Assembly (NCBI RefSeq): GCF_029224025.1
Contig: NZ_CP119392.1
Location: 3,991,001-4,055,000 of the forward strand
Direction: 5' to 3'
DNA: 64,000 nucleotides
Origin: Rhodanobacter sp. AS-Z3
GTDB lineage: Bacteria > Pseudomonadota > Gammaproteobacteria > Xanthomonadales > Rhodanobacteraceae
Program-made: the position numbers and the translations under genes
Shown here: positions 38,177 to 60,235 of the stretch, one piece after another
Numbering within the stretch: the stretch's first letter is position 1
Layout of the letters: the number at the start of each line of letters is the position of its first letter
The notes under the pieces: generated by a model
Database searches by the model: none
What the model saw: the letters and a program-made list of their open reading frames with translations, nothing else
Told to the model about the DNA's origin: nothing

Positions 38177-39337
38177 TCATGTCATTATTTCGGTGTCGTG
38201 TCGTGAACCTGTGGTTGCTATGTGCAGATAGTCGCAATCAAGTTGATCGAGCGAAGGACAACCGAGTTGCACGAGTACGGAATCCAGTTGTGCGCGTAAT
38301 AAACCAATGACATCATCGACGCCTCGTTCGCCACGGGCCGCGAGGCCGTACAAGGTCGCACGGCCGAGCATCACGATATCGGCGCCGAGCGCGATGGCTT
38401 TGGCGATATCGGACCCTCGACGAAAACCGCTATCGATTAGAATTGGCGCGCGCGTAGCGGCGCGTACGTCGGCAAGTGCCTCGATCGGGGCAATACAATC
38501 GTCAAGCTGGCGACCGCCATGATTAGACACGACGACCCCATCCACGCCTAGCAAAACACAACGCGTCGCGTCTGCCGCAGTGAGGAGACCCTTCACGAGC
38601 AGACGGTGCGGCCAGAGATCACGCAACCAGGCTAGGCCATTCCAGTCAAATGTTGCATCCATGCTGCGGCTCAAGACCGCAGCTTGCATTTCGATATCGT
38701 GCGGATCGATATCGGCGAAGTTCGCCAGCCGCGGCAAACCATGGCGCAGCACGGATACACTCCAGCGAGGATGGGTCAATCCATCCCAGAGCAGGCCAGG
38801 CGTAACGCACAATGGCAAGGCGAAACGGTTGCGTAAATCGCGCTCGCGAGTACCGTTCCTTACGACGTCGACAGTCAGCACCAGTGTGGTGTAGTCGGCG
38901 GCGAGAGCACGGCGTACCAATTGCTCAGCCAAGCGACGGTGAACCACGTAAAGCTGGAACCAGTGTTCGCCGTCGGCCTGACGGGCGATGTCTTCGATAC
39001 TGGTGCTTGCGGCAGTCGAAAGCACAAATGGCAAGCCGTGTCGAGCAGCTGATCTGGCGAGAGCGAGATCACCCTGCGGCCAGAAAAGATCATTCAGCCC
39101 CGTTGGGGCGATAACTAATGGCAGCGGCAATCTCCGATGAAACAACACCCGCGACATATCACGGGTGCTGACGTCATGCAGTCTCTTAGGCCTGAAACGA
39201 ATCTTGGCGAAGGCCTCACAGTTATGGCGCAGCCCACGTTCGTCCTCAGCGCCACCTTCCAGATAGTCGAAGACTCTGCGGGGCAGGCGCCGCCGCGCGG
39301 CCTTACGATAGTCATCCACATTGATCCATGAATTCAC
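38177..39337 (-). CDS. FMN-dependent mandelate dehydrogenase-like / hydroxymandelate oxidase
   Basis: This 386-aa protein belongs to the alpha-hydroxy-acid oxidase family and resembles (S)-mandelate dehydrogenase MdlB closely along its length. It has NVDDYRKAARRRLP, FDYLEGGAEDERG, the catalytic SNHGGRQLD (His and Arg) and GRATLYGLAARGERGV. It should oxidise an aryl 2-hydroxy acid to the arylglyoxylate using FMN. In hydroxyphenylglycine pathways the same step is done by Hmo. Start ATG 39337 has AGGTG upstream. It points away from the NRPS operon and lies 8.5 kb from it across an IS-filled gap, but its chemistry fits the VOC and aminotransferase genes there. A catabolic mandelate role is the alternative. 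Confidence 0.85.
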   Translation of the reverse strand: MNSWINVDDYRKAARRRLPRRVFDYLEGGAEDERGLRHNCEAFAKIRFRPKRLHDVSTRDMSRVLFHRRLPLPLVIAPTGLNDLFWPQGDLALARSAARHGLPFVLSTAASTSIEDIARQADGEHWFQLYVVHRRLAEQLVRRALAADYTTLVLTVDVVRNGTRERDLRNRFALPLCVTPGLLWDGLTHPRWSVSVLRHGLPRLANFADIDPHDIEMQAAVLSRSMDATFDWNGLAWLRDLWPHRLLVKGLLTAADATRCVLLGVDGVVVSNHGGRQLDDCIAPIEALADVRAATRAPILIDSGFRRGSDIAKAIALGADIVMLGRATLYGLAARGERGVDDVIGLLRAQLDSVLVQLGCPSLDQLDCDYLHIATTGSRHDTEIMT

Positions 39338-39398
39338 CTGATGCTCCCTGGCGCCTTTCCAGGCGCGGATGTCCCTTGCTGAAGAATTCGGGTGTTCC

Positions 39399-39612
39399 TT
39401 ACTGCGGAGGGGACGGCAACACGATCTGCATGTTATCCTGCGAGGCGACCTGGATCGAGTGCTCCCCTTGCTGATTGCGCACGAGCACTGTCATGGTTGG
39501 CGGATTTTTCGCGAGAATTCGCGAGAAGAAGCCTGACTATGTCATCGACATGGTCGACGCGCTGGTCTTCGATAGCCATAATCGTATCGCCTTCATGAAT
39601 CGCCCCGGGTTT
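39399..39612 (-). pseudogene. PDZ-domain protein remnant
   Basis: Read on the minus strand, one frame gives GAIHEGDTIMAIEDQRVDHV, the core of a PDZ domain. A second frame, after a shift near 39495, gives MTVLVRNQQGEHSIQVASQD and a stop at 39399. Together they make the second half of a PDZ protein similar in plan to the intact one at 44272-44658. The 5' half is absent, cut off by an IS3 remnant. Confidence 0.6.
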
Positions 39613-40059
<447 letters not shown>

Positions 40060-40143
40060 TCACGGTCGAAACGAGCCTGATCGTCGCAACGGTGCCCCTC
40101 GCCGACCCGCAGCGCTACGACACCCTGCGCAAGGAGGTGGGCC

Positions 40144-41004: not shown

Positions 41005-41153
41005 CCGATTCGTCACGACCCACTGTTACACTCTACCCAGGCCGAGGGCATGCGCCCTCGGCCTCCAGCCCTAGTCGATTTTCAACGCGCATGGCTGGCC
41101 AGTTTTCAACGTGTCCCAACACTCATGCTTGACGCTCCTGCTCAGAAGACTTT

Positions 41154-41159
41154 GAATAG
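41154..41159 (+). repeat. Target-site duplication (left) of IS21 copy 3
   Basis: GAATAG immediately precedes the element and recurs immediately after it at 43783-43788. A 6-bp duplication is within the IS21 range (4-8 bp). Confidence 0.85.
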
Positions 41160-41334
41160 TGCGTATTCCGGCCCACCGTGACCGGTCGTTTCGGTAAGAC
41201 GTGACCGCCTGTTTCGGTTGATCGTGACCGATTTCCGGTGGCGACCGAATGACCGGTCACGGCTTACCGAAACGCAAATTTCGTTGTGCATAACTTCAAC
41301 GCACGGTCATCCTCCCTAGTTTTTGGAAGGGAAG

Positions 41335-42919
41335 ATGCCGACACCGCGAGTAGCTATGCACAAGATCAAAGAATGTCTCCGACTGAAGCTGGATTGCGAG
41401 CTGTCGCATGAACGCATTGCCTTGGCGTTGGGCTTGTCCAAGGGCGTGGTGAGCAAGTACGTGGCCCGCGCCGAGGCGGCGGGGCTGGACTGGCCGGCGC
41501 TGTCGGCGCTGGATGAGACTGAGGTGGCGGCCAAACTGTGCGCGCCGGCGCCGGCGCCGGTGGTGCGTGGCGACCGGGCACCGATCGACCTGCCGTGGGT
41601 GCACCGCGAACTGCGCCGCAAGGGCGTGACGCGGCAGCTGTTGTGGGAGGAGTATCGGGAGGCAAACGCCGATCGGGCCACCTACCAGTACACCCAGTTC
41701 TGCCAGCACCATCAGGACTACGCCGGCTCGCTACACCGTTCGATGCGGCAACTGCATCGTGCCGGCGAGAAATTGTTCATCGACTATGCCGGACCGACCG
41801 TCGCCATCGTCAACCCCGACACCGGCGAGTTGCGCCGAGCGCACATCTTCGTCGCCGTGCTCGGTGCCTCCAGCTACGCCTACGCCTGCGCCACCGCCGG
41901 CGAGAAACAGGTCGACTGGCTGCGTGGCCTGTCGCAGGCGCTGGCGTTTGTTGGCGGAGTGCCGGCGCTGGTGGTGCCGGACAACCCTCGCGCGCTGATC
42001 GCCAACCCGGATCGTTATGAGCCCGAGCTCAACCGGGCGACGCAGGACTGTGCGCGGCATTACGGGATGGCGATTCTACCGGCCCGACCGCGCCGCCCGC
42101 AGGACAAGGCCAAGGCCGAAGCCGGGGTTCAGGTGGTCGAACGCTGGATCCTGGCGCGGCTGCGTCACCAGTGCTTCTCACCCTCGCGGCACTGAACCAG
42201 GCGATCGCCGAGCTGCTGGCAGACATGAACGCGCGGCCGTTCAAGAAGCTTGATGGTTCCCGCCGCACGTGGTTCGAGACGATCGACCGGCCGGCACTGC
42301 TGCCGTTGCCAGTGCAGCCGTACGAGCTGGCGCAGTTCAAAGTGTGTCGGGTCAACATCGACTACCACGTCGACATCGACCGGCATTACTACAGCGTGCC
42401 GCACGCGCTGGTGCGCAAGGAAGTCGAGGCGCGCATCACGGACACCATCGTCAAATCCTGCACGCCGGGCAGCGCGTGGCCAGCCATGTGCGCTCGGATG
42501 CGCGGGGTCGCCACACCACCGTGGCCGAACACATGCCGGCCGCGCATCGCGCCCATCTGGAATGGACGCCCGGACGCTTCCTGCGCTGGGCCGCAGACAT
42601 CGGGCCGGCCACGGGCCAACTGGTCGAGCATCTGCTGACTGACCGGCCGCATCCGGAAATGGGCTACCGCAGTTGTCTGGGCCTGCTGTCACTGGCGCGT
42701 CACTACGGCCACCCCCGCCTGGAAGCGGCGTGCGCCCGGGCCGTGGCGATCGGCTCGCGCACACGCAAGTCGGTGCTGTCGATCCTGCAGGGTGGGCTGG
42801 ATCAGCAGCCCTTGCCGACGGTTGAGGTGCAGACCGACTGGGTCAGCCCGGACCACGACAACCTGCGCGGCCCGGCGTACTACCTCGACCCACCACCACC
42901 CACTAATCCCACCCACTAA
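41335..42919 (+). pseudogene. istA: Frameshifted IstA of IS21 copy 3
   Basis: Three frames together encode one IstA. The first runs from 41335 (MPTPRVAMHKIKECLRLKL) with HTH, FIDYAGPTVAIV (first D) and VVPDNPRALI (second D) to a stop at 42195. The second continues LAALNQAIAELLADMNARPF to about 42470. The third continues to 42919 (VAEHMPAAHRAHLEW, ending NPTH). Two frameshifts, near 42175 and near 42475, inactivate it. Confidence 0.88.
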
Positions 42920-42931
42920 AAGGACACCCCT

Positions 42932-43630
42932 ATGTTGACCCATCCCACCCTGGACCAGTTACGCGTGCTCAAGCTGGACGGCATGGCGCACGCCTTGGAA
43001 GAACAGCGTCTGCTACCGGCCTGCCAGGATCTTGCGTTTGAAGATCGGCTCGGCTTGTTGGTGGATCGAGAACGCAGCTGGCGTGATGGCCGGCGGCTGG
43101 CGCGGCTGCTGCGATCGGCCAAACTCAAGCACATCGAAGCCTGTCTCGAAGACGTCAGTTACAGCGGCGGCCGCGGGATCGACAAGCGCTTGATCGCGAA
43201 CCTGTCCGGTGGCGACTGGATCCGGCAAGGTCAGAGCATCCTGCTCACCGGCCCGACCGGCGTCGGCAAGACCTGGCTCGCCTGCGCGCTCGGGCAACAG
43301 GCCGGTCGCCAAGGCTTCCCCGTGCTCTACCAGCGCGTGCCGCGCCTGACCGAAACGTTACGCATCGCGCACGCCGATGGCAGCTTCGGCCGTTTGCTCA
43401 CCCAGCTGGCGCGGGTCGACGTGCTGATCCTGGACGACTGGGGCATGACGCCACTCGATCAGGCGGCACGCCACGACCTGCTTGAAGTCATCGACGACCG
43501 CAGCACCAGCAAATCCACCCTGATCACCAGCCAGCTGCCGATCGATCACTGGCATGCCTGGCTCAACGATCCGACCGTGGCCGACGCCATCCTCGATCGC
43601 CTCGTCATCGCTCCCATCGCATCAATCTGA
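42932..43630 (+). CDS. istB: IstB ATPase of IS21 copy 3, C-terminus shifted
   Basis: This 232-aa AAA+ helper has an intact Walker A (GPTGVGKTW) and Walker B ([10 protein letters not shown]). At the C-terminus it reads [13 protein letters not shown], whereas the next frame continues [20 protein letters not shown], the usual ending. A small frameshift near 43605 has therefore replaced the last ~25 residues. Activity is doubtful, and its partner IstA is broken. Confidence 0.85.
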
Positions 43631-43782
43631 AGGGCGAATCCCTGCGCCGAAAACCACTGGACAAGGACAAACCTGGCGACCCATCGTGACCGAACCCGTT
43701 ACACTTTAATGCAGCGCACAACGATTGGCAGCGACCGGTCACGATCGACCGAAACGAGCGGTCACGATCACCGAAATACCCA

Positions 43783-43788
43783 GAATAG
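43783..43788 (+). repeat. Target-site duplication (right) of IS21 copy 3
   Basis: GAATAG directly after the element matches the copy at 41154-41159. Confidence 0.85.
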
Positions 43789-43890
43789 GCTCTAAGGTCG
43801 TGACGCATCGAAGCGCGTCCCCGGATAGGGGTGGATTTGTCGACAGTACGGCAAATGACGACGAGCGATACGGTTGAAGTGTTCCCAGGA

Positions 43891-44225: not shown

Positions 44226-44271
44226 GATAGCCGCAAGTCGTCGAACTTCTGCCTAACCGGCCGTGCCGCGT

Positions 44272-44734: not shown

Positions 44735-45232
<498 letters not shown>

Positions 45233-46636: not shown

Positions 46637-47699
46637 CGACGACGCTCAGCCATGAAAATTGTCGATGGCACGCAATTTTGGCTCAGGCCAAGGTTTGCAC
46701 AGCACCATGGCCCGCGCCAGTCGCGGCAGCAACTCGGCGAGGCGAAACCGACGGTTGAACCGGTAGGCCGCCTCGGCCAGGTAGCGCCGCGCGTACTTGG
46801 CCTGCCGCATGGCGTGGTAACAGCCGCTGATGGCGCGTTTGACGTTGCCGAGCACCACGTTCACCCAGCGCGCGCCCTTGACCTCGGTCGCGGTACGTCC
46901 ACCTTCGGTTTCCAGCACGGTATGTGCATGATCCAATTCGACGACGCGCCGGAAGCAGCCCAATCCATCGCTGAAGACTTCCGCATCGGGTGCAAGGCGC
47001 CGCTTGCCCCAGTCGGTGAGTGCGACATTGTCGAAGCTACGCACCGGCTCGATGACGGCGAAGGTCGGGTGTTCCAGCGTTTCGTCAGTGGATACGGCCA
47101 CCACGAACGGCTGTTTGTTTTCCGATCCGCGTCCTGGCTTGCCGCCGTTGCGTTCGCCGCCCAGGTAGGCATCATCGATCTGCACGAAATCCGTGAGTTG
47201 GCGCGGTTCTTCACGTTCAGTCATGGTCTGCATGATCTTGTGCTTGAGCTTCCAGGCGGTGTCGTAGCACACGCCAAGGTGCCTCTTCAGTTCCAGCGCG
47301 GACATATTGGTCTTGCTGCCGGTCAACAGATGCATCGCCAAGAACCACGTCGTCAGCGGGAGCTTGCTGCCCTCAAACGCCGTCCCGCTGGTCAGCGTCG
47401 TCTGATGCCTGCACGTGCGGCATTGGTAGTACACCCGGCCCGCGCGGCGAAACTTCGAGCGCGGCCGGCTATCGCACTTCGGGCAGCGGAACCCCTTCGG
47501 CCAGCGCGCCCTGTACAGCGCCCGGTAGCACCTGGCTTCGGTGCCGTACCGCTGGATGAACTGCGCCATCGACAACCCCGCCTGGAACTGCACTTGGTTC
47601 ATAGCCATGACGACTCTCCGTCTCCTAACATGACATCGAGGCTGCGCCGGGCACGTCTCAAATCACGCGACCGCCAACTGAGCGTCGTCGCTAATCAGG
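46628..47699 (-). mobile_element. Intact IS1595-family element
   Basis: The 1,072-bp element has perfect inverted ends over at least 20 bp (CCTGATTAGCGACGACGCTC at the left and its complement at the right) and an exact 8-bp target duplication. It contains one intact transposase gene on the minus strand. This is the best-preserved and therefore probably youngest insertion in the window. It inserted at the end of the IS481 gene, about 140 bp upstream of the NRPS operon. Confidence 0.95.
46646..47608 (-). CDS. IS1595-family transposase
   Basis: This 320-aa protein has the N-terminal zinc ribbon of the family (CPKCDSRPRS and CRTCRHQT) and an ISXO2-like DDE-type domain: FVQIDDAYLGGERNGG (D), VFSDGLGCF (D) and the later H/N-E region (VNVVLGNVKRAISG). 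It is intact. It catalyses cut or copy of the flanking ends. Confidence 0.95.
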   Translation of the reverse strand: MAMNQVQFQAGLSMAQFIQRYGTEARCYRALYRARWPKGFRCPKCDSRPRSKFRRAGRVYYQCRTCRHQTTLTSGTAFEGSKLPLTTWFLAMHLLTGSKTNMSALELKRHLGVCYDTAWKLKHKIMQTMTEREEPRQLTDFVQIDDAYLGGERNGGKPGRGSENKQPFVVAVSTDETLEHPTFAVIEPVRSFDNVALTDWGKRRLAPDAEVFSDGLGCFRRVVELDHAHTVLETEGGRTATEVKGARWVNVVLGNVKRAISGCYHAMRQAKYARRYLAEAAYRFNRRFRLAELLPRLARAMVLCKPWPEPKLRAIDNFHG

Positions 47700-47840: not shown

Positions 47841-48383
47841 ATGGATTACGACGTTAAATCACCGCTGTCGGCCGAACGCTGTGAATCGGCCTATGGCTCA
47901 CTCTCCGAAGTCCCCTTTAGGCGCATCGATCACATCGCTCTTGCGGTGCGCGATCTCGAAGAAGCAGTACATCTTTTCGGGAATATCCTTGGCTTCGAGC
48001 TAAAAGGCCGCCGACAAATCCGCGGTGCGACCACCGGCATGATCTCTGCCGAAATGGAAATCAACGGCATGCGGTTCGTGCTTTGCCAAGGGACGGAACC
48101 CCAATCGCAGGTATCCCAACTGATCGAGAATTTCGGCGTTGGCTTGGCGCATGTGGCATTTGAGGTCGAGGACGTAGAGCAAACGGTCGAGATGCTTCGC
48201 AACCGTGGCATGGGCTTCGATACCAATGTCATTCGCGGTTCCGGTCTTACGCAATCGTTCACTACGCGCTGCCACAATACCGGCATGAGTTTTGAGCTCA
48301 TTCATCGCGAAGGCGAGGATGGTTTTCTCGAAGGCAACGTGCAGGCGTTGTTTGACCAGTTGGAACAGGGTAACAAGTACTGA
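47841..48383 (+). CDS. Single-domain VOC enzyme, mini 4-hydroxymandelate synthase/HPPD-like
   Basis: This 180-aa protein is a vicinal-oxygen-chelate enzyme. It has the metal ligands expected of the fold: H31 in RIDHIALAV, H104 in GLAHVAFEV and E152 in SFELIHR. The C-terminus GFLEGNVQALFDQLEQ mirrors the HPPD and hydroxymandelate-synthase ending GFGEGNFKALFE. Those enzymes are two-domain proteins of about 350-400 aa; this one keeps one metal-binding domain. H104 to E152 is 48 residues, shorter than in HPPD. Predicted role: oxidative decarboxylation of an arylpyruvate to a mandelate. A methylmalonyl-CoA-epimerase-like activity is the alternative. ATG 47841 has AAGGGAT upstream. It is first in the NRPS operon. 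Confidence 0.7.
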   Translation: MDYDVKSPLSAERCESAYGSLSEVPFRRIDHIALAVRDLEEAVHLFGNILGFELKGRRQIRGATTGMISAEMEINGMRFVLCQGTEPQSQVSQLIENFGVGLAHVAFEVEDVEQTVEMLRNRGMGFDTNVIRGSGLTQSFTTRCHNTGMSFELIHREGEDGFLEGNVQALFDQLEQGNKY

Positions 48384-49800: not shown

Positions 49801-51246
49801 ATGGGAATGCCGGCAAAGCGCGGCGTACCTGACTACGTGAGGGATGGCATGAAGCTGAGTCACATTGAGCACTATCTGATGCAGGGCATCCAGACGCTAC
49901 GTCGCGACGACCCGGAACTGTTCGACATTCTCGAACGCGAGCATCAGCGGCAATCGGAGTCACTTTCTCTTATCGCCTCCAGCGGCGGCACCGATTCATC
50001 AGTGCTAGCGACGGTAGGCAGCACCATCGTCAATGTCACGGCCGAAGGGTATCCGGGCAAGCGCTATCACGCAGGCTGTCGATTTGTCGACATGGCCGAA
50101 CAGCTCGCCATCGATCGCGCGAAGAAGGTATTCGGCGCACGCTACGTCAACGTGCAGCCGCATTGCGCAAGTTTCGCCAATCACACGGTGATGCAGTCCC
50201 TGCTCTCGCCCGGCGACACGATCCTCGGCATGTCGCTGGATCAAGGCGGCCATCTGACCCATGGATCCCCGGTCAATCTCAGCGGCAGGCTTTACAGGGC
50301 CATCGGCTACGGCCTGGATTCAAAGGGACTCATTGATTATGGCCAATTGCGCGAGCAGGCCCTCGAACATCGTCCGGGACTGATCGTTTGCGGCACAACC
50401 TCCTACACTCGTGTCATCGACTTTGATCGCATTCGTGGTGCAGCCGATGAAGTCGGTGCCTATGTGCTTGCCGACATCACGCATATCGCAGGCCTGGTAG
50501 CAGCCGGCGTCCATCCAAGCCCTATCGATGCGGCACACTTCACCACCACCTGTACGTTCAAGCAACTCTACGGCCCGCGTGGCGCGCTCATCATGATGGG
50601 GCGCGACGCCGATACCATCGGGCCTGATGGCGCGCGCACCTTGTCCAACGGCATCCAGAGCGCCGTGTTTCCGCTCATGCAGGGCTCTCCCGAAGTGCAC
50701 ACCATTGCCGCCAAAGCGCGTGCCATGGGCCGTCTGCTCGAGCCAGAGTTTCGCGACCTGGCGCGCCGCATCCATGCCAACGCGGCAACGCTTGCCGATG
50801 CCCTGCAGGCGCGCGGCTACGAAGTCATTAGTGGCGGCACCGATAACCACATTGTCCTGTTCCGCGTGCCGTCGCATCTCAACGGAGAGGTAGCGACACG
50901 TGCACTGGAGCACTGCGGGATCCTGGTGAATAAGAACAAGATTCCTGGCGACTACCGAAGCGCGGCAACTGCGAGCGGTCTGCGTCTGGGCAGCAATACC
51001 GTATCGCTGCGCGGCATGGGCAAGAAGCAGATGCACGAGGCCATCGAACTGATTGATGTCGTGCTTAAGCATGCGCATGCCAGCGGCGGTGGCAGTTTCG
51101 AGCTCGATGAAAACGTGTACGACCAGGTGAACGGCAGCGTGCGTGAGCTATGCCGCATGTATCCGATGCCGTACGACGCGCTGCCATCGATGCGCGTCGA
51201 GCCAGGCCAAGCCGTCACGGAGCCTGCTGTCGCACTTGCGCCTTGA
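49801..51246 (+). CDS. Divergent serine hydroxymethyltransferase-like PLP enzyme
   Basis: This 481-aa protein has the SHMT fold: AEGYPGKRYHAGCRFVD, QLAIDRAKKVFGA, GGHLTHGSPVN, and ADITHIAGL with D225 and H228. The PLP lysine is K254 in TTTCTFKQLYGPRG. Two key SHMT residues differ. The catalytic glutamate of IASEN is serine (S61 in LIASSGG), and the histidine before the lysine (usual THK) is phenylalanine (F253). Folate-dependent serine cleavage is therefore doubtful. An aldolase or transaldolase reaction making a beta-hydroxy or alpha-substituted amino acid for the NRPS is more likely. ATG 49801 has GGAG upstream. A C-terminal extension (about 425-481) is also unusual. Confidence 0.82.
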   Translation: MGMPAKRGVPDYVRDGMKLSHIEHYLMQGIQTLRRDDPELFDILEREHQRQSESLSLIASSGGTDSSVLATVGSTIVNVTAEGYPGKRYHAGCRFVDMAEQLAIDRAKKVFGARYVNVQPHCASFANHTVMQSLLSPGDTILGMSLDQGGHLTHGSPVNLSGRLYRAIGYGLDSKGLIDYGQLREQALEHRPGLIVCGTTSYTRVIDFDRIRGAADEVGAYVLADITHIAGLVAAGVHPSPIDAAHFTTTCTFKQLYGPRGALIMMGRDADTIGPDGARTLSNGIQSAVFPLMQGSPEVHTIAAKARAMGRLLEPEFRDLARRIHANAATLADALQARGYEVISGGTDNHIVLFRVPSHLNGEVATRALEHCGILVNKNKIPGDYRSAATASGLRLGSNTVSLRGMGKKQMHEAIELIDVVLKHAHASGGGSFELDENVYDQVNGSVRELCRMYPMPYDALPSMRVEPGQAVTEPAVALAP

Positions 51247-51319
51247 TTCACACGTTGAAACGCGCCGTGCAATCCACGGTGCGACGGTTCGGTTTTTGCC
51301 AATTTCAAGGATAGTTACC

Positions 51320-53820
51320 TTGCACGAGTCCATTCCGTCCCCCGAACGCCATTCCATCCCTTCGGATACGGAAGAAGACTTCTGGCGTGATTACCTTGCT
51401 GGCCTGCTAACGACAACGCGAATCGGAATGGAGCGCGAAGACGCACTATCGCCTGACGAGTTCGCCGTCGTTCGTACGACACTTGATGCCAGCTCGCTGG
51501 ATGGCGATGCGGCTCTTGAAACGTATGCTTGCGCGGCGTGGGCCCGCCTGCTTGCCACGTACAGCGGTGAAAACGATGTTGTTTTCGGCGTTGCAGGAGG
51601 GCGACCGCTACGCGTACGCGTGGATCCTGCGCAGCGTATCGCTACTTTTCTGGAAACGGTCGCGACGACTATTGCCGACGTATCGGTGCGGCGAGCCACC
51701 CCACTCGCTCGCCTGCGTGAGCTGGCAAACCTCGAACCGGGCACGCCACTGTTTGACACCGCCTTGTACGTTGGAAAGCAACAAGGCGTTGAAACAGATG
51801 CGGCGTCATCGTCCCTCATTGTGTCGATCGTTGGTGCTCCGACGGTTGAGATCACATTGCGTTACGCAGTGGCCCGCATGAGCGCCACGGCAGCGGCAGA
51901 AGTGCTTGATCAGCTGCGCATGCTGGTCGAAGCGCTATGGGGGCGTGGCGACAGCACGTTGCATGCCGCACCCACTGTGGCAGGACCTTACGCCGCGCGG
52001 GCACTGCACGAATGGAATGCCACTGCGGAAGCTTATGACGATCAGGTGACCCTGCATGGCCTGGTTGAGCGGCAGGCCACTGCGCATCCGCAGCGCCTGG
52101 CCGTCGTCGCCGACGATGGCGCATGGAGCTACGACGAACTGGATCGACGCGCAAATCAGGTTGCACATCGCCTGGTTGCGCTTGGTGTAAGGCCCGGCGA
52201 TCAGGTGGGACTCTGCGCGGAGAAATCGGCAGCAACGGTGGCAGGCATGCTCGGCGTGATGAAAGCCGGCGCCGCCTACGTGCCCATCGATCCGGGCTAC
52301 CCGGCAAGTCGCATCAGTTACATGGCCGGCGACGCACAATTGAGTGCATTGCTGACCTGGGGCCAGGGCGCAGTCGCCACGGCAGAACTCAAACTTCCTC
52401 GCATCGCGCTCGATGAATGGAGAACCCTCGCCGAGTATTCGGTGAAACCGTTGTCGCACAACGTGCCCGCAGACGCATTCGCGTACGCAATCTATACCTC
52501 TGGCTCCACCGGCCAACCCAAGTGCGTGCTGCTCAATCATCGCGGCCGCATCAACAACATCGAGGACTACTGCCGCCGCCTCGAACTCGGCGAAACCGAT
52601 CGCGTCTTGTGCGTCTCATCGCTGAGTTTCGATATTTCTGTGTGCAACATTTTCTGCATGTTCCGCTCGGGCGGTTGCGTGATCTTTCCGTCGCTCGATC
52701 ACCTGAAGGATCCGGACCATTGGCTTGACGTCATGCAGGAGAGGTCGGTGACATTCTGGCATTCCGCACCCGCGCTGATGGATGCGTTGCTGGAGGCCGC
52801 CAGTGAGCGTCGCTACGACCGCAACAGCTTGCGTGTCGCGCTACTGGGTGGTGACTGGGTTCCGCTGTCGCAACCAAACCGTGCGCGCGCGGCGTTCCCG
52901 CGAATGCGCTTCGTCACGGCCGGTGGCGCCACGGAACTGTCGATCGATTCGACTTTTTATCCGGTCGACGAGATTGATCCCGCGTGGCGAAGCATTCCCT
53001 ATGGCCGACCGCTCGCCAACCAAAGCGCACTGATCCTCGATGCGGACATGGCACTCCTGCCACCGGGCGTACCTGGCGAATTGCATCTGGGTGGTGCCGG
53101 CATGGGCGCCGGCTACATGAACAGGCCAGCCCTCACCGCCGAGAAATTCATTCCGCATCCGTGGCCAACGATACCGGGTGAACGCCTCTACCGTACCGGC
53201 GATCTTGCGCGGTACATGCCCGATGGGACAATCGAGCTGCTTGGACGCATGGATTTCCAGGTAAAGATCCGCGGCATGCGCATCGAACTGGGCGAACTGG
53301 AATCGGTACTCATCGAGCACTCATCGGTCACGGCGTGCCTCGCCAGCGCGCCGCATGATGGGGCCGGCGACCGTCGGCTGGTCGCTTACGTGGTGCCTGT
53401 TCCCGGAACCGATAACCGTCTGCATGCATCGTTGCACGAGTGGCTTGCCGCGCGGCTTCCCGTGCATCTGGTACCCGAGGCTTTCGTCACGCTGGAACGG
53501 CTGCCGCTCACACCGAACGGGAAAGTCGACCGCCGCAACCTGCCTGCTCCCGATCCGGATGCTTACTGCGCCGAGCGTGCCTACGAGCCGCCGCAGGGCG
53601 ATACCGAACAAAGCCTGGCGGCCCTTTGGCAGCGGTTGCTCGGTGTGAGTCGCGTGGGCCGACACGATCACTTTCTCGACCGGGGTGGCCATTCGCTGCA
53701 CCTTGTCCGCCTGCTCAGCCGGGTCCGTCGCACATTTGGTGTCGAACTGGCACAGAGCGCACTGGCAGGTACGCAATCGCTCGCCGACATGGCAACGCTG
53801 ATCGCCGGCGCTGATTCGGC
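51320..53820 (+). other. NRPS module 1 (starter): half-C, A1, PCP1
   Basis: Residues 1-215 match only the C-terminal half of a condensation domain (VVFGVAGGRP, PLFDTALYV); the HHxxxDG half is absent. A1 has two odd core motifs: PKC instead of PKG after TSGSTGQ, and GGATE instead of YGPTE, a type found in siderophore Cys/Thr domains. Hand alignment gives the binding-pocket code D-I-C-H-L-G-A-I-D-K. It shares D, I, H, L, G and K with the known Hpg code DIFHLGLLCK but matches no code exactly. Predicted substrate: a phenylglycine-type amino acid. Confidence 0.6.
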
Positions 53821-56800
53821 ATCCAGCGAAACGGGGCTGGTGCCGCGGCGTCCGGGCACTCCCGCATCGCCGTCGTTCGCTCAGAAACGCCTGTGGTTCA
53901 TCACTCAGATGGAAGACCTTGGTGCGGCTTATCACATGCCCGCCGCATGGGTTTTGCATGGTGCGCTCAACGAAACTGCACTGCGCGGAGCACTGAATGG
54001 CGTTCTCGATCGGCACGAGGGTCTGCGTAGCCGCTTCATAACCGTCGATGGCGAACCGGTGCTGCTTATCGATCCGATCGGAACACCGATGCCGCAATCG
54101 TTCCACGATCTGCAAGGCCGGTCCGACGCTGCGCAGGTCCTTGACCTCATTCTGGCAAACGATATCCAAGCTCCATTCGATCTCGCCAGGGATACGCTCG
54201 CGCGTGCCAGTCTGATCCGCATGGATGCGCATGAGCATGTGCTTTTACTCGTCCAACACCACATAGTGTCGGACGGCTGGTCGTACGCGCCGCTGCTGCG
54301 CGATATCGGCGAGCTTTACGACGCTTTGGTGAAAGATGGTACCGCTTCCCTGCCGCCCTTGCCGTTGCAATACGCCGACTACGCCGCATGGCACGGTACA
54401 TGGCTTGCGGGCGAACGTGAACGTGTGCAGTCGGACTACTGGCGGCGTGCACTTGCCGGTGCACCCGCGTGCATCGCGCTGCCGACCGATCGCGAACCGC
54501 CCGCACAGCAATCGCCGAAGGGTCGCGGGCATCCCGTGCATATCGATGTCGAACTCGCGCGACGCCTTCGCCGCGTGGCCCAGCACCACGGCACCACGCT
54601 TTTCGCTGTTGTCCTCGCGGGTTGGTCCGTGGTGCTGTGGCGTCTGTCGGGACAGCACGACTTGGTGATCGGCGGAGTCACCGCCAACCGCGGGCAGGTC
54701 GAAACCGAATCGCTCATCGGCTTCTTCGTCAACGCGCTTGCGTTACGCGTCGATCTTTCGGGCGATCCGAGCGTGACCGAACTGCTCGAGCGCGTTCGCC
54801 ACACCGTGCTTGGCGCACAGGATCACGAGGACCTTCCGTTTGAGCGGGTTGTCGAGCTGTCTCAGGTCGAGCGCCTACCAGGACGCACGCCACTGTTCCA
54901 GACGATGCTCGCGTGGCAAAGCCACGACGAGGGGAGTCTCCGACTGGCCGACCTCGCCACGGTGCCCCGGCCCGTCGCGCACGAAACGGTACGTTTTGAA
55001 TTCGAACTCACCTTGCGCGAGCAGGATGAGGCGATCGTCGGCGAACTCAACTACACCACAGCGCTGTACGACCATGCAACGGTGGCGCGCTACCGCGACT
55101 ACTTCGTTCGCGTGCTTGTCGCCATGGCGGCCGATCCGGCTCAAGCGGTCGGACACATCGCTCTAATGGGCGACGGCGAACGCACGCAGTTGTTTGAGAC
55201 CTTCAACGACACCGTCGCACAGTATCCGCACGATGTCGGCGTGCATGTGTTGTTCGAGGAACAGGTGGGCCAACGCCCTGACGCCGTGGCACTCGTCGAC
55301 GGCGATGCTTCGCTCACTTACACTGAGCTTAACACGCGCGCCAATCGCATCGCCCATCGGCTGATCGCCATCGGCGCCGGTTCAGGTGACTTCGTAGCGG
55401 TCCTGCTTGAGCGCAGCGCCGACCTGGTCATCGCTCAATTGGCTATTCTCAAGGCGCGTGCCGCTTATGTGCCGGTCGACCCGCAACTTCCCGAAACGCG
55501 TCAAGCGTGGTTGGTCAAAGATGCTGGAGCGCGCTGGGTGATTGCTGCTTCGGCACATGCCGCGCCGGCCATCGGTGCGCCGGTGGTGGGTATTGACGAA
55601 CTACTGCATGGTGAGAGTCGCGTCGACAACCCGCATCGCGAAGTCGATGCCGGTTCGGTCGCTTACGTGATGTACACCTCAGGCTCCACCGGTCTACCCA
55701 AGGGTGTGCTGGTCCCGCATCGCGCGATCAACCGTTTGGTGCGCAACAACGGTTATGCCGCATTTGGTCCGGACAGCCGGGTGGCCTTCGTCTCCAATCC
55801 CGCGTTCGACGCCGCCACTATGGATGTGTGGGGTCCGCTGCTCAATGGAGGCGTCGCCGTGGTGATCGATCACGCCACCGTGCTCTCCGTCCAGGCGTTC
55901 GTCGAAACACTGCGCCGCACCGCGGTCGATACCATCTTCCTGACAATCGCCCTGTTCAACCAGATCGCCGATGCACTGACGGCGGTGATGCCGCAGTTGA
56001 AAACCCTGATCACCGGTGGCGAAGCCTTCGATCCCACGGTGATCGCCCGCGTGCTCAAGGGACCGCACCCGCAGCGTCTGCTCGCCGCCTACGGACCCAC
56101 CGAAGCGACCACATTCACGACCACGTATCTCATCGAGGGCCATGCGCGGGAAACCAAGAGCATTCCGATCGGTCGCCCCATCAGTAATGCGCGTCTGTAT
56201 GTCTTGGATGCACATCGCCAACCGGTGCCGATGGGTGCGGTGGGGGAGTTGTATATCGGTGGCGCTGGCGTGGCGCTCGGCTACCTCAATCGTCCGGAAC
56301 TAACCGCCGAACGTTTCCTGCCCGATCCGTTCGATGCACGGCCCGATGCACGCATGTATCGAACCGGCGATCTGGTCCGCTATCTGCCCGATGGCAACTT
56401 GGTTTTCATGGGGCGTGTCGATGATCAGGTGAAGATCCGCGGCTATCGCATCGAACCGGGCGAGATCGAAGCGCGATTGGCCGAGCATCCGGCGGTACGC
56501 GAAGTCGTCGTGTTGGTGCGTCAGGATCCGACCGGCGACAAGCGCCTGGTAGCTTATGTGGTGGTCGGCGCGGATGCGTCGGGCAATCTGGCGGCGGCTT
56601 TGCGTGCGCATCTGGCGCCACGTCTGCCCGACTACATGATTCCAGCTGCCTACATCGGCATGGCAGCGTTTCCGCTCACGCCAAATGGCAAACTCGATCG
56701 CAAAGCGTTGCCGGTTCCGGACGACGAAGCCTTTGCCCGTTTGGGGTATGAAGCGCCGCACGGCGAGGTCGAAACCATCCTCGCCGGTATCTGGCAGGAA

Positions 56801-59800
56801 CTGCTCGATATCGAGCGCGTCGGCCGTCACGATCATTTCTTCGAGTTGGGAGGTCATTCGCTGCTCGCCGTGCGATTGCTTAGCCGCATCGCACAGGCAT
56901 TCGGTGTCACGCTGCCCTTGTCGGCACTGTTCAGAACGCCGCAGATCGATCGCTTGGCGTTGGCGATCGATGTGGCGCGCACAAATAACGATACAAAGGT
57001 GTTGCCGCCGATAGTACCCATCCCGCACGAAGGCGCGCTGCCGCTTTCCTTCTCGCAACGGCGTCTCTGGTTCCTCGCTCAGTTCGAGCGGATCAATCCG
57101 ACCTACAACATTCCATTGCAGTTTCGTCTGTGTGGCACGTTGGACGTAGCGGCGCTAAGCCGTGCATTCAGCTTGCTGTTTATGCGGCATGCCAGCCTGC
57201 GCACCGTATTCAGCATGCGCGATGGCTTGCCCGAAGCCTACCTACTTACACCCGATGCGCTGCCGGTCTTACGTGCAGAAGACATACGCGGCGATACTTC
57301 CTCGCTAGAGGCAGTCCTCATTTCCGAAGCGACAGCACCGTTCGACCTGGCTGCAAGCCCGCTCATTCGTGCGCGCACACTGCGCGTCGCGCAAGACGAG
57401 TATCTGTTGTTATTGACCCTTCACCATATTGTTGCAGACGAATGGTCCATCGGCCTGCTGACGCAGGAACTCGGCACGCTCTACCGCTCTTGCCGCGACG
57501 GGGTCAACGATACCCTGGCGCCGCTAGACATCCAGTATCCGGACTTCGCCGCCTGGCAGCAGCGCTGGTTGACGGCGGCCGCGCTCGATCACCAAGCGAC
57601 CTATTGGCGCGAGCGACTTACCGGTGCGCCGCCCTTACTGTCGCTTCCGCTCGATCACCCGCGACCGCCCGAACAAAGCTACGTGGGTGACGTTGTGCTG
57701 GTGACATTGGATGCTGCGCTGAGCGAAGACATCCGGCAGCTGGGGCGCGCACACGGCGCAAGTCCTTTCATGACGGTATTGGCCGCGTGGTCGGTAGTGC
57801 TTTCCCGTATGTCGGGGCAATCCGAGGTGGTGATCGGTGTACCCACAGCGAATCGTAGCCAGCACGCGCTGGAGCCGTTGATAGGCTTCTTTTTGAACAC
57901 GATAGCCCTGCGTATAGATCTCAGCGACGAGCCGGATGTCGCCGGACTGCTTTCCCGTGTCGCACGAACCACCCTCGATGCGCAGGCGAACCAAGACCTG
58001 CAAATCGAACAAGTGGTCGAGATCATCAATCCGCCGCGGCGGCTCGACCATGCGCCCTTGTTTCAGGTGATCCTCGCTTGGCGCACCCATGCGGCGCAGG
58101 AGCTCTCGCTTGTGGACTTAAGCGTTGAGACGCTCCCGCTTGCCACGCACAGCGTCAATTTCGACCTTGAGCTGAGTCTTGGCGAACGTGACGGCGCGAT
58201 CGTCGGCGGACTCGCTTATGCCACCGCCCTTTTCGACCGGGCCACCATCGAACGGTACACGGGCTATCTGGAGGCAACGTTACGCGCCATGGTGGCGGAC
58301 GCGGGAAAACCTGTATCGCGCATAGCGATACTTCCGCAAGCCGAACGGAATCTGCTGCGGACTCGCAACGACACGTATGTGCAGTGGCCGCGCGAGCTGC
58401 GCATCCATGGGGCATTCGAACAACATGCCGCACATTCACCCTCCACGATTGCTGTGGTCGCCGGCAGTGAGTCGCTCACCTATGCAGCATTGAACACGCA
58501 AGCCAATTGCCTTGCCCATCATTGCATCGCGCTAGGTGTTCGCCCGAATACCCATGTCGCGCTATGTGTCGAACGCGGTGTCGTGATGGTCGTCGCGATG
58601 CTCGCCATACACAAGGCCGGCGGCGCTTATGTACCGCTTGATGCCTCCTATCCGGCCGCACGGCTGCGCACGGTGCTCGACGACGCGGATGTCGTGCTGG
58701 TTCTTGCCGACAGCGCTGGACACAACGCAATGGGTCGGGAGTTACTCGCCACGCGAACCATCGTCGATCTCGACCATCCGCACGCTTGGTCGACGCAGCC
58801 GGATAGTAACCCGGATTTGCGTACACTCGGCGCACGCGAGAGCGATGCGGCCTATGTCATCTATACCTCGGGGACCACCGGCATACCGAAAGGCGTGATC
58901 GTCGAGCATCGGCAGGTGCTTAACTTCTTGAACGCGATGGCGCATGAACCCGGTCTCACCGCGCATGATCGCCTGCTCGCTGTAACCAGCATTTCGTTCG
59001 ATATCGCCGGCTTGGAGATCCATCTCCCCCTATCACGTGGCGCACGTCTCGTGTTGGCTGGGCGGGATGATACGGCGGATCCGGCGCGCTTGCGCCGCTT
59101 GCTGCACGAACAAGACATCACAGTCATGCAGGCCACACCGGCCGGGTGGCGCGCACTGCTAGATAGCACGGGCGAGGCACTACCGGCTGGTTTGCGCGTG
59201 CTGTGCGGCGGCGAAGCGCTGAGTCCTGCGCTCGCTGTACGGTTGTGCGAACGCTTCGACGAGGTCTGGAATCTGTATGGTCCGACTGAGACGACGATCT
59301 GGTCGACGATTGCACGCGTGGACATGCGCGCGCCGCAGATGGCGGCGAATCTTTCCATCGGCCGGCCGATTGCCAACACCCACATCTATCTGCTCGATTC
59401 CCATGGCGAGCCGGTGCCGCTGGGTGCTGTCGGCGAATTATATATCGGTGGTGACGGGGTTGCGCGCGGCTATCACGCGCGGCCGGAACTCAACGCTGCG
59501 CATTTCGTACCCGATCCGTTCAGTCCGTTCGCCGCCGCACGCATGTATCGCACCGGTGACCAGGTACGCTACCTTGCCAACGGCGAGCTGGAGTTCCTCG
59601 GGCGCAACGATCATCAAGTAAAGGTGCGCGGGTATCGCATCGAGCCGGGCGATATTGAAGCGCGTTTGCGCGAACATTCGGCTGTACGCGATGCGGTAGT
59701 GGTCGCCCGCGATCATGCCGGTGAACAACGCCTGGTGGCTTACGTCATCCCCCGTGACGAGCGCGTACGCGACGACCTTGCGGTATCGCTCAAGTTGCAT

Positions 59801-60235
59801 CTGACTCACACGCTGCCCGCCTACATGCTGCCCACGGCTTTCGTGACGCTGCCTGCGTGGCCACTGACGCCGAACGGCAAGCTGGACCGGGCAGCGCTTC
59901 CTGTGCCGGGCGATGATGCGGTGTCTCGGCAAACGTACGTGGCCCCGCAAGGTGAGACCGAAACCATGCTTGCCGGACTTTGGTGCGCGCTGCTGGAGGT
60001 CGAGCGGGTCGGTCGCGACGACAACTTCTTCGACCTCGGCGGCCACTCGCTGATCGCCATACGTCTGATCAGCCGTATCGACGCGGAAACGGGACTCCGG
60101 CTCGAACCGTCGGTGCTATTCCGTTTTCCCACGCTCGCCGAGCTTTCCCGGCAGGTACTGCTTGCGCAGCTCGCGCAGGAATTCGATCCCGATCAACTCA
60201 ATCAACTCGCGCTTGCGGATGAGAACACGCCATGA
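51320..60235 (+). CDS. Three-module NRPS
   Basis: This 2,971-aa synthetase has the order half-C, A1, PCP1, C2, A2, PCP2, C3, A3, PCP3. Carrier serines are in RGGHSL (about residue 792), LGGHSLLA (about 1847) and LGGHSLIA (about 2910). A-domain P-loops TSGSTG or TSGTTG lie near 391, 1452 and 2515. Full condensation domains are C2 (HHIVSDG, about 980) and C3 (HHIVADEW, about 2035). No epimerase, methyltransferase or thioesterase is present. I chose TTG 51320 because AAGGATAG lies 5 bp before it and the frame upstream overlaps the SHMT-like gene. The N-terminus is a C-domain second half, typical of a starter module. The gene ends overlapping the next NRPS gene by 4 bp. Confidence 0.95.
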   Translation: MHESIPSPERHSIPSDTEEDFWRDYLAGLLTTTRIGMEREDALSPDEFAVVRTTLDASSLDGDAALETYACAAWARLLATYSGENDVVFGVAGGRPLRVRVDPAQRIATFLETVATTIADVSVRRATPLARLRELANLEPGTPLFDTALYVGKQQGVETDAASSSLIVSIVGAPTVEITLRYAVARMSATAAAEVLDQLRMLVEALWGRGDSTLHAAPTVAGPYAARALHEWNATAEAYDDQVTLHGLVERQATAHPQRLAVVADDGAWSYDELDRRANQVAHRLVALGVRPGDQVGLCAEKSAATVAGMLGVMKAGAAYVPIDPGYPASRISYMAGDAQLSALLTWGQGAVATAELKLPRIALDEWRTLAEYSVKPLSHNVPADAFAYAIYTSGSTGQPKCVLLNHRGRINNIEDYCRRLELGETDRVLCVSSLSFDISVCNIFCMFRSGGCVIFPSLDHLKDPDHWLDVMQERSVTFWHSAPALMDALLEAASERRYDRNSLRVALLGGDWVPLSQPNRARAAFPRMRFVTAGGATELSIDSTFYPVDEIDPAWRSIPYGRPLANQSALILDADMALLPPGVPGELHLGGAGMGAGYMNRPALTAEKFIPHPWPTIPGERLYRTGDLARYMPDGTIELLGRMDFQVKIRGMRIELGELESVLIEHSSVTACLASAPHDGAGDRRLVAYVVPVPGTDNRLHASLHEWLAARLPVHLVPEAFVTLERLPLTPNGKVDRRNLPAPDPDAYCAERAYEPPQGDTEQSLAALWQRLLGVSRVGRHDHFLDRGGHSLHLVRLLSRVRRTFGVELAQSALAGTQSLADMATLIAGADSASSETGLVPRRPGTPASPSFAQKRLWFITQMEDLGAAYHMPAAWVLHGALNETALRGALNGVLDRHEGLRSRFITVDGEPVLLIDPIGTPMPQSFHDLQGRSDAAQVLDLILANDIQAPFDLARDTLARASLIRMDAHEHVLLLVQHHIVSDGWSYAPLLRDIGELYDALVKDGTASLPPLPLQYADYAAWHGTWLAGERERVQSDYWRRALAGAPACIALPTDREPPAQQSPKGRGHPVHIDVELARRLRRVAQHHGTTLFAVVLAGWSVVLWRLSGQHDLVIGGVTANRGQVETESLIGFFVNALALRVDLSGDPSVTELLERVRHTVLGAQDHEDLPFERVVELSQVERLPGRTPLFQTMLAWQSHDEGSLRLADLATVPRPVAHETVRFEFELTLREQDEAIVGELNYTTALYDHATVARYRDYFVRVLVAMAADPAQAVGHIALMGDGERTQLFETFNDTVAQYPHDVGVHVLFEEQVGQRPDAVALVDGDASLTYTELNTRANRIAHRLIAIGAGSGDFVAVLLERSADLVIAQLAILKARAAYVPVDPQLPETRQAWLVKDAGARWVIAASAHAAPAIGAPVVGIDELLHGESRVDNPHREVDAGSVAYVMYTSGSTGLPKGVLVPHRAINRLVRNNGYAAFGPDSRVAFVSNPAFDAATMDVWGPLLNGGVAVVIDHATVLSVQAFVETLRRTAVDTIFLTIALFNQIADALTAVMPQLKTLITGGEAFDPTVIARVLKGPHPQRLLAAYGPTEATTFTTTYLIEGHARETKSIPIGRPISNARLYVLDAHRQPVPMGAVGELYIGGAGVALGYLNRPELTAERFLPDPFDARPDARMYRTGDLVRYLPDGNLVFMGRVDDQVKIRGYRIEPGEIEARLAEHPAVREVVVLVRQDPTGDKRLVAYVVVGADASGNLAAALRAHLAPRLPDYMIPAAYIGMAAFPLTPNGKLDRKALPVPDDEAFARLGYEAPHGEVETILAGIWQELLDIERVGRHDHFFELGGHSLLAVRLLSRIAQAFGVTLPLSALFRTPQIDRLALAIDVARTNNDTKVLPPIVPIPHEGALPLSFSQRRLWFLAQFERINPTYNIPLQFRLCGTLDVAALSRAFSLLFMRHASLRTVFSMRDGLPEAYLLTPDALPVLRAEDIRGDTSSLEAVLISEATAPFDLAASPLIRARTLRVAQDEYLLLLTLHHIVADEWSIGLLTQELGTLYRSCRDGVNDTLAPLDIQYPDFAAWQQRWLTAAALDHQATYWRERLTGAPPLLSLPLDHPRPPEQSYVGDVVLVTLDAALSEDIRQLGRAHGASPFMTVLAAWSVVLSRMSGQSEVVIGVPTANRSQHALEPLIGFFLNTIALRIDLSDEPDVAGLLSRVARTTLDAQANQDLQIEQVVEIINPPRRLDHAPLFQVILAWRTHAAQELSLVDLSVETLPLATHSVNFDLELSLGERDGAIVGGLAYATALFDRATIERYTGYLEATLRAMVADAGKPVSRIAILPQAERNLLRTRNDTYVQWPRELRIHGAFEQHAAHSPSTIAVVAGSESLTYAALNTQANCLAHHCIALGVRPNTHVALCVERGVVMVVAMLAIHKAGGAYVPLDASYPAARLRTVLDDADVVLVLADSAGHNAMGRELLATRTIVDLDHPHAWSTQPDSNPDLRTLGARESDAAYVIYTSGTTGIPKGVIVEHRQVLNFLNAMAHEPGLTAHDRLLAVTSISFDIAGLEIHLPLSRGARLVLAGRDDTADPARLRRLLHEQDITVMQATPAGWRALLDSTGEALPAGLRVLCGGEALSPALAVRLCERFDEVWNLYGPTETTIWSTIARVDMRAPQMAANLSIGRPIANTHIYLLDSHGEPVPLGAVGELYIGGDGVARGYHARPELNAAHFVPDPFSPFAAARMYRTGDQVRYLANGELEFLGRNDHQVKVRGYRIEPGDIEARLREHSAVRDAVVVARDHAGEQRLVAYVIPRDERVRDDLAVSLKLHLTHTLPAYMLPTAFVTLPAWPLTPNGKLDRAALPVPGDDAVSRQTYVAPQGETETMLAGLWCALLEVERVGRDDNFFDLGGHSLIAIRLISRIDAETGLRLEPSVLFRFPTLAELSRQVLLAQLAQEFDPDQLNQLALADENTP
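53865..56975 (+). other. NRPS module 2: C2, A2, PCP2
   Basis: C2 begins SFAQKRLWFITQ and has an intact HHIVSDG. A2 has standard motifs (TSGSTGLPKG, AYGPTEATT, YRTGDLVRY). The code read by hand is D-A-M-F-I-G-A-T-F-K, closest to Val (DAFWIGGTFK) and Ile (DAFFYGITFK), so an aliphatic residue is predicted. PCP2 has FFELGGHSLLAVRL. Confidence 0.65.
57030..60150 (+). other. NRPS module 3: C3, A3, PCP3
   Basis: C3 begins LSFSQRRLWFLAQF; its catalytic motif reads HHIVADEW, with glutamate replacing the glycine of HHxxxDG. A3 (TSGTTGIPKG, LYGPTETTIW) gives the code D-I-L-Q-L-G-L-I-W-K, which is the standard glycine code in every position. PCP3 has FFDLGGHSLIAIRL. Confidence 0.75.

Follow-up and report, generated by a model that had tools for sequence, protein, structure and literature searches.

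In its closest described counterpart, the HmaS-Hmo-HpgT pathway of actinomycete glycopeptide and related clusters, arylpyruvate is converted to arylglycine in three steps, with a nonribosomal peptide synthetase (NRPS) alongside. Here we examine a 64,000-nucleotide stretch of the Rhodanobacter sp. AS-Z3 genome (the window; positions 3991001-4055000 of a genome of one contig, 4.09 Mb), in which a VOC protein, an FMN-dependent oxidase and an aminotransferase near an NRPS may provide the same proposed chemistry for L-4-hydroxyphenylglycine (Hpg). Our reference for the actinomycete genes, and for HpgT in particular, was an unannotated plasmid stretch of Streptomyces sp. NBC_01237 (L111), assigned by gene order and homology, where a 370-aa two-domain HmaS-like open reading frame (ORF), an Hmo-like oxidase and an aminotransferase lie in a row beside NRPS genes. 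The aminotransferases of the two systems are homologous, whereas the first enzyme of the window is a single barrel of about 180 aa and its oxidase is of the (S)-mandelate dehydrogenase (MdlB) type. The host belongs to the Rhodanobacteraceae, order Lysobacterales (Xanthomonadales in other taxonomies), the order that the original prediction, made from the letters of the window, had supposed.

That prediction also treated the pathway as a property of actinomycetes, which was an overstatement, given the reports of Hpg lipopeptides from Burkholderia and, from Xanthomonas, of Dpg genes and a VOC-transaminase-dehydrogenase set. Specifically, the excerpted text of a review (PMC9581180) gives haereogladin, burriogladin, haereoplantin and burrioplantin as Burkholderia Hpg lipopeptides and names Yoshimura et al. 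2020 as the source for the Hpg-containing haereoplantins and burrioplantin of Burkholderia plantarii; an excerpted report on B. gladioli ATCC 10248 describes a burriogladin analogue with Val replacing Hpg (PMC7866175). These lipopeptides are shorter than, and different from, the peptide predicted for the window, but their producers are likewise Gram-negative, and B. gladioli and B. plantarii carry relatives of the VOC protein (72-75% identity over 87-88% of the query, among the matches listed), the comparison being of genomes rather than clusters. Royer et al. 2013 (PMC3849588) described Xanthomonas META-B NRPS loci with a VOC-superfamily protein, a transaminase and a lactate dehydrogenase (HP-TA-DH), a set that they left unassigned, and reported orthologues of HP and TA in Dickeya, as well as Dpg genes in Xanthomonas. 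Likened by description, this set shares with the window a VOC protein, a transaminase and a 2-hydroxyacid dehydrogenase in NRPS loci and differs in that its dehydrogenase is a lactate dehydrogenase; the description, together with the VOC-aminotransferase-Ldh order in three loci studied here (L026, L053, L054), suggests that it belongs to the present family.

More distantly, the pristinamycin phenylglycine pathway PglA-E, as outlined in the excerpted source (PMC7089894), also ends in arylglyoxylate transamination but, unlike the route proposed here, proceeds through CoA intermediates, namely phenylacetyl-CoA and benzoylformyl-CoA. A link to solanimycin was dropped, a term search of two papers having returned no Hpg-related terms. 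In the titles and abstract openings listed by full-text searches of the Creative Commons (CC)-licensed PMC literature, we found neither a single-domain hydroxymandelate synthase nor a Gram-negative HmaS/MdlB/HpgT-type pathway, although subscription papers, including the Burkholderia originals, may describe the route. The half-size first enzyme and an interchangeable oxidase slot are the new points.

A candidate arylglycine cassette and its intact counterpart

We consider it likely, with good confidence, that the locus supplies Hpg to a 13-module NRPS by a route that would run from the VOC protein through the oxidase and the aminotransferase to module 8. We regard the arylglycine cassette as very likely genuine, and Hpg would be its likeliest product. 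The observations beneath this proposal are the sequence families, the gene order in relatives, the conserved putative ligands and the co-occurrence of adenylation (A) domain codes; from them we infer the catalytic steps, the 4-hydroxy group, the stereochemistry, the amino donor and the pathway role of the displaced oxidase. The genes and insertion sequences concerned are the following.

38177..39337, minus strand: FMN-dependent 2-hydroxyacid oxidase/dehydrogenase of the MdlB type, 386 aa (Pfam FMN_dh, 422 bits); proposed (hydroxy)mandelate oxidase
41323..43630, plus strand: IS21-type insertion sequence between the oxidase and VOC genes (rve integrase ORF 41323-42195, IstB 42932-43630; Pfam rve, IstB_IS21)
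46646..47608, minus strand: IS1595-type transposase immediately ahead of the VOC gene (Pfam DDE_Tnp_IS1595)
47841..48383, plus strand: half-size, one-barrel HPPD/HmaS-type VOC protein, 180 aa, with an alternative upstream ATG at 47718; proposed 4-hydroxymandelate synthase
48468..49733, plus strand: HpgT-like pyridoxal phosphate (PLP) aminotransferase (Pfam Aminotran_1_2), its start preceded by GGGGGAG, with an alternative upstream ATG at 48396; proposed (hydroxy)phenylglyoxylate aminotransferase
49801..51246, plus strand: SHMT-like PLP enzyme, between the aminotransferase and NRPS genes, with the Glu of the LIASEN motif of E. coli SHMT missing
51143..60235, plus strand: NRPS protein 1 (modules 1-3), whose true start is uncertain and may lie 3' of 51246
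60232..64000, plus strand: start of NRPS protein 2, which runs ~15.7 kb past the window end and contains module 8

In the proposed mechanism, the half-size VOC protein, as an Fe(II) enzyme, would convert 4-hydroxyphenylpyruvate from tyrosine/prephenate metabolism, with O2, to 4-hydroxymandelate, which the MdlB-type FMN oxidase would oxidise to 4-hydroxyphenylglyoxylate. The HpgT-like aminotransferase would then form Hpg, probably with tyrosine as amino donor, which would regenerate hydroxyphenylpyruvate, and module 8 (code DILHLGCTFK) would load the product.

The three ORFs of the original prediction exist where it placed them, and their reading as a cassette leading from arylpyruvate through arylmandelate and arylglyoxylate to arylglycine, next to an NRPS and with an oxidase of the MdlB type, is supported by homology and by gene order in relatives. 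Their description as three genes together held only in part: all three are present, but the oxidase gene lies on the minus strand (its interval read on the plus strand is full of stops), ~8.5 kb from the VOC gene behind insertion-sequence genes, and the SHMT-like gene had been overlooked.

In a relative from the same family and another genus (G692), the genes for the oxidase, VOC protein, aminotransferase, SHMT-like enzyme and NRPS are contiguous on a single strand, so the association of their counterparts in the window is more than chance. Identities between the two loci are 77% for the FMN oxidase, 78% for the VOC protein, 72% for the aminotransferase, 83% for the SHMT-like enzyme and 62% for the NRPS; both genomes have 13 A domains in the same order, with 10 of 13 codes identical. 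By blastn, window positions 47905-51185 (VOC-aminotransferase-SHMT) are colinear with G692, while the oxidase (38250-39326) aligns in the opposite relative orientation, and the VOC-oxidase distance between aligned ends is ~0.7 kb in G692 against ~8.6 kb in the window. The one-strand order and this inversion together indicate an operon in the window that insertion sequences have disrupted; they would have inverted the oxidase gene and carried it off. Dense remnants of several insertion-sequence families surround the displaced oxidase (36787-47608, on a partly by-eye reading).

Recurrence of the cassette and its oxidase slot

The VOC family is rare and scattered, since few matches were found among the genomes sampled at each rank. 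At E <= 1e-25, these numbered 3/398 in the phylum, 1/369 in the class, 4/328 in the order, 8/233 in the window's own family and 7/146 in the genus of G256 (own genome counted where drawn). A protein search that returned only proteins of 0.55-1.75x query length, thus excluding two-domain HPPDs, gave 338 matches, including the query, at E <= 0.001. The 120 matches listed are 155-243 aa long, with named sources that include Burkholderia, Xanthomonas, Lysobacter, Dyella, Rhodanobacter, Rhizobium, Bradyrhizobium, Mesorhizobium, Trinickia and others, and some bear database names such as methylmalonyl-CoA epimerase.

We compared 23 VOC loci by BLAST with references that included the window genes and the Vibrio and Sinorhizobium meliloti cluster genes. 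In two of the loci (L026, L027), some matches to the references arise by construction; L025 stayed outside the comparison, and of the plasmid records, 7 of the 16 that had a VOC match were retrieved; five stretches (L031, L048, L057, L058, L062) stop at contig ends, where absences mean little. A related aminotransferase, 44-72% identical to that of the window (38% for the Vibrio one), lies no more than 3 kb from the VOC gene in 17 of the 23 loci (L021-L023, L026, L031, L048-L051, L053-L060), and an NRPS is present in 17 (L021-L024, L026, L027, L031, L049-L056, L059, L060). VOC and aminotransferase distances are correlated (Mantel r 0.81, p 0.0001, n=14 loci), as expected for genes inherited together.

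A 2-hydroxyacid-oxidising enzyme was found in nine of the 23 loci, and three kinds are represented. MdlB-type oxidases, 59-77% identical to the window's, lie near the VOC and aminotransferase genes in L048-L051; Hmo-like FMN oxidases adjoin the aminotransferase gene on the opposite strand in L055 and L056 (43-45% identical to the Hmo-like protein of L111 and 37-38% to the window oxidase); and an Ldh_2 enzyme (Pfam) occurs in L026, with 44-45% relatives in L053 and L054. That one slot is filled by different 2-hydroxyacid-oxidising lineages provides the strongest argument for a 2-hydroxyacid as the VOC product. A catabolic mandelate operon, which the original prediction had named as a possible refutation, was rejected, the oxidase gene being found with VOC and aminotransferase genes in L048-L051 and among insertion sequences in the window. 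Further, L027, L061 and L062 encode the VOC domain as a fusion with chorismate mutase (Pfam CM_2), which ties it to arylpyruvate supply.

Somewhat more cautiously, we lean towards a Gram-negative arylglycine pathway in its own right. Here, a single-barrel Fe(II) enzyme (~300 relatives in one search) would make aryl-mandelates, the oxidase slot would have been filled independently by MdlB-, Hmo- or NAD-type (Ldh_2) enzymes, one HpgT-like aminotransferase would be shared, and some chorismate mutase fusions would make 4-aminophenylglycine. If so, a function would be suggested for the Xanthomonas VOC-transaminase-dehydrogenase set, and the Burkholderia peptides would have a candidate route of Hpg supply.

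Near the fused VOCs are PabB-like genes (L027, L061, L062) and prephenate-dehydrogenase-like genes (L027, L061), with a class IV aminotransferase in L027, and the Sinorhizobium meliloti T073 stretch (L027:17607-22192), like L061 and L062, holds a candidate 4-aminophenylglycine or aminomandelate pathway. On the Vibrio europaeus plasmid pVEu (L026:19944-28478, L109), VOC, aminotransferase and Ldh_2 genes lie in a row 3' of a polyketide synthase (PKS)/NRPS cluster, accompanied by genes of the TauD, phytanoyl-CoA and cupin-like types. Upstream is a gene of the penicillin acylase family; downstream, one for penicillin-binding protein 2 could represent a self-resistance copy.

Adenylation codes and the residue supplied

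Codes were read from A3-A5 stretches aligned to PheA, with the last K assumed. Modules 1-7 gave DICHLGAIDK, DAMFIGATFK, DILQLGLIWK, DVQYAAHVAK, DFWNIGMVHK, DALWIGGTFK and DFWNIGMVHK, and modules 8-13 gave DILHLGCTFK, DSALIAEVWK, DALWIGGTFK, DALWIGGTFK, DAWTVAAVCK and DAMLVGAICK. The original prediction had matched supply to demand at module 1, whose code shares six of ten positions with DIFHLGLLCK, which we take to be the actinomycete Hpg code. The count is correct, but module 1 also shares six of ten with what we take to be the Ser code and six of ten with the Gly code, so the match is not informative, and module 1 was rejected as the Hpg module. By the same presumed Hpg code, module 8 also scores six of ten, as it does for Val and Gly. 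Its code, DILHLGCTFK (genome 4066196-4066666, 11 kb past the window end, in NRPS protein 2), nevertheless has a report of its own: in the excerpted text of a 2025 survey (PMC12283262), which cites Yoshimura et al. 2020, DAMHLGCTFK/DILHLGCTFK accommodate Hpg. The consumer of Hpg is thus probably module 8, beyond the window, and not module 1.

Demand, read in this way, co-occurs with supply. In a family search, the six best module 8 matches (at least 63% identity) all have DILHLGCTFK and all lie in VOC-positive genomes, whereas the code is found in 0/19 of the next readable loci, from genomes without a VOC match, which lack His at that position and carry codes that are mostly Val-like. This reading covers 25 of 30 loci (L087, L088, L091, L092 and L097 were unreadable), with one locus per genome and at most 16 candidates scored per genome, the family searches having drawn 233 and 230 genomes. 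Of the 14 genomes or loci that bear both VOC and aminotransferase genes and gave a readable A domain, 13 have a DI-x-H-[L/M]-G code, module 1 codes not counted: the window genome, G692, G758, G660, G663, G670, G965, G566, G522, Rhizobium T136, Bradyrhizobium 187, S. chiapasense and Vibrio europaeus (DIVHLGLVLK). The exception is G962, with DAFHLGCVFK. When plasmid records were ranked by module 8 match, six of the seven best were VOC-positive, and the seventh was a small plasmid of one such strain. The cassette together with a DIxH[L/M]G code would aid Hpg prediction in Gram-negative NRPS clusters, where 6/10 code matching is ambiguous.

Several further A domains were noted. The small plasmid record NZ_CP088012.1 of Rhizobium sp. 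T136 (9644 bp) has one that is about as near to module 8 as is that of the large plasmid's NRPS in this strain (60.9 and 59.9%); the record is a by-product of assembly or else an excised piece. In Paraburkholderia sabiae (L024:11600), the code is SILHLGCTFK, with the first Asp replaced by Ser, at a VOC locus without an aminotransferase. VOC-positive G686 is not among the module 8 matches listed, and its cluster codes are DICHVGLIEK and GIVHFGFILK.

Of the alternatives to Hpg, the one that survives best, albeit as an unlikely one, keeps the cassette and changes the residue, to phenylglycine made from phenylpyruvate or, in clusters with PabB, chorismate mutase and prephenate dehydrogenase, to 4-aminophenylglycine. 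Consistent with phenylglycine, MdlB-type oxidases are named for plain mandelate, and Hms is reported, in excerpted text, to accept phenylpyruvate and further aryl pyruvates as substrates; the module 8 code, however, is one of those reported for Hpg in the survey excerpt. For 4-aminophenylglycine speak the PabB-like genes near the VOC gene in L022, L027, L049, L061 and L062, most of which also have a gene for chorismate mutase or a prephenate-dehydrogenase-like enzyme, either nearby or fused to the VOC gene, but neither PabB nor prephenate dehydrogenase was seen among the ORFs around the window VOC gene in a search that was not exhaustive.

Less probable still is that the SHMT-like enzyme and module 1 are the recipients of what the cassette makes, such that an aryl aldehyde or similar compound would become a beta-hydroxy amino acid loaded by that module. 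The SHMT-like gene does lie between the aminotransferase and NRPS genes, and it co-occurs with the module 1 code in the window and G692. The Glu of LIASEN in SHMT is required for folate chemistry; the enzyme (also L050:6887-8323, minus strand) has LIASSGG in place of LIASEN and RYHAGC in place of the RYYGGC of solved bacterial SHMTs. It is probably not a folate-dependent SHMT, and the missing Glu would fit a transaldolase-like reaction. Its closest solved relative is 7qcw (468 bits; next 3g8m and 1dfo, 385), on which no relevant paper was found among CC-licensed PMC full texts. Against this alternative, the gene occurs in only 1 of the 23 loci blasted (L050, which is G692), placing it outside the core cassette, and the module 1 code is as near Ser and Gly as it is Hpg.

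A single-barrel first enzyme and its partners

The VOC protein has one glyoxalase-type domain in 180 aa, rather than the two barrels of HPPD and HmaS (about 350-400 aa). It scores 77.4 bits with the NCBIfam 4HPPD model (cut-off 277) and 53.2 bits with the methylmalonyl-CoA epimerase equivalog (cut-off 114.95), below both cut-offs, and is therefore a full member of neither family. Against solved structures, a profile of 22 VOC sequences scored HPPDs at up to 94.7 bits, HmaS (2r5v) at 80.3 and epimerases at no more than 53.0; plant HPPDs scored 37-45 bits. The putative iron ligands H31, H104 and E152, which align with those of HPPD and HmaS, are invariant in all 48 listed relatives. Further, Q90, Q138, R156, F162 and N166 are common to the VOC proteins, 12 HPPDs and one HmaS-like protein (with N at 90 in one VOC row). 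F162 and N166 are missing from all four small epimerase-like VOCs compared, and Q138 and R156 are each found in one of those four. F171 is as in HPPDs, the HmaS-like protein having Y there. Position 167 is V or I in 48/48 listed relatives; the single HmaS-like protein has I there, and 12/12 HPPDs have F. Phe versus an aliphatic residue here presumably matters for HPPD versus HmaS chemistry.

It is accordingly very improbable that the VOC protein acts as an epimerase, or as some other enzyme of the glyoxalase fold, with the oxidase and aminotransferase in unrelated catabolism and nearby by accident. The epimerase names of some relatives and the single barrel would allow this, and kinship with methylmalonyl-CoA epimerases was among the possible refutations named in the original prediction. 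Against it stand the epimerase score far under cut-off, the sharing of Q90, F162 and N166 with HPPD and HmaS and not with the four small epimerase-like VOCs, and the recurrent co-location with aminotransferases, oxidases, NRPS and chorismate mutase. A role as the HPPD of tyrosine catabolism was also rejected: in six VOC-positive genomes out of six, there is a separate HPPD-like ORF as well, and the VOC protein is not needed for that function. In those genomes, a search with the HmaS-like C-domain found the HPPD-like ORF first each time (80-98 bits) and scored the VOC proteins at 16-24 bits only. We thus read the VOC protein as a candidate separate single-barrel lineage rather than an HmaS orthologue, with HmaS-like function if the proposal is right. 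Of the HPPD/HmaS-like assignment in the original prediction, then, the iron ligands and tail residues bear out the likeness, while orthology with HmaS and the two-barrel form do not hold. A scan of genome contigs with P0001 as query gave only three loci, at 30-34%.

Several observations count against supply of Hpg by this route, the low C-domain scores just given among them. For the VOC protein, the S. meliloti fusion has T at position 167, and a tree of 35 VOC, HPPD, HmaS-like and epimerase-like sequences has long branches and does not firmly place the VOC group. For the cassette, no oxidase was seen in 14 of the 23 fetched stretches, the Bradyrhizobium-like ones included (such genomes have FMN_dh genes elsewhere, one of them 57% in G566); the VOC gene lacks an aminotransferase in L024, L027, L032, L052, L061 and L062, and by annotation has neither aminotransferase nor NRPS nearby in L025; and in L022 the aminotransferase is split across two overlapping ORFs. 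For the residue, the DILHLGCTFK domain and VOC gene are on different contigs in G663 and G758, G677 (VOC-aminotransferase-MdlB type) has no close module 8 match (best 99.5 bits), and B. glumae has a VOC relative (63%, among the matches listed), yet its lipopeptides are reported, in excerpted text, without Hpg.

For the partners of the VOC protein, both assignments in the original prediction stand as homologies. The best solved relative of the oxidase is the (S)-mandelate dehydrogenase 6bfg (513.8 bits, colinear over residues 5-372), compared with 190 bits for the 4-hydroxymandelate oxidase structure 5zzp. The oxidase is colinear with MdlB through a loop that the Hmo-like protein of L111, to which it is 35% identical, is without; it differs from MdlB in its setting with VOC and aminotransferase genes in the four relatives. 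It is the sole FMN_dh match of its type in its own genome at 1e-20. In an engineered cascade, the excerpted source (PMC10991500) has an (S)-mandelate dehydrogenase, PaMDH, which its name suggests is of the MdlB type, handle the 4-hydroxymandelate step after HmaS. As a candidate hydroxymandelate synthase, the VOC protein would be half as large as the two-domain type used in engineered phenylglycine routes, and its single barrel would show the two-domain form to be dispensable for hydroxymandelate chemistry. The cassette aminotransferase is the best match of the HpgT-like protein of L111 in six genomes out of six (230-262 bits; next best no more than 138); cassette and L111 aminotransferases are 36-38% identical over nearly their whole length, and in the window genome it is the sole match at 1e-5 (38% over its residues 2-400).

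Outside the window, a gene for a CmlA-type diiron beta-hydroxylase directly follows the NRPS genes (genome 4084471-4086087; L019:14471-16087), which may point to beta-hydroxylation at one position of the peptide. Next come the C-terminal fragment of a carbamoyltransferase and a phosphopantetheinyl transferase. Upstream of the insertion-sequence remnants around the displaced oxidase, the genes scanned are ordinary-looking, among them GGDEF/EAL proteins, a catalase and an M28 peptidase.

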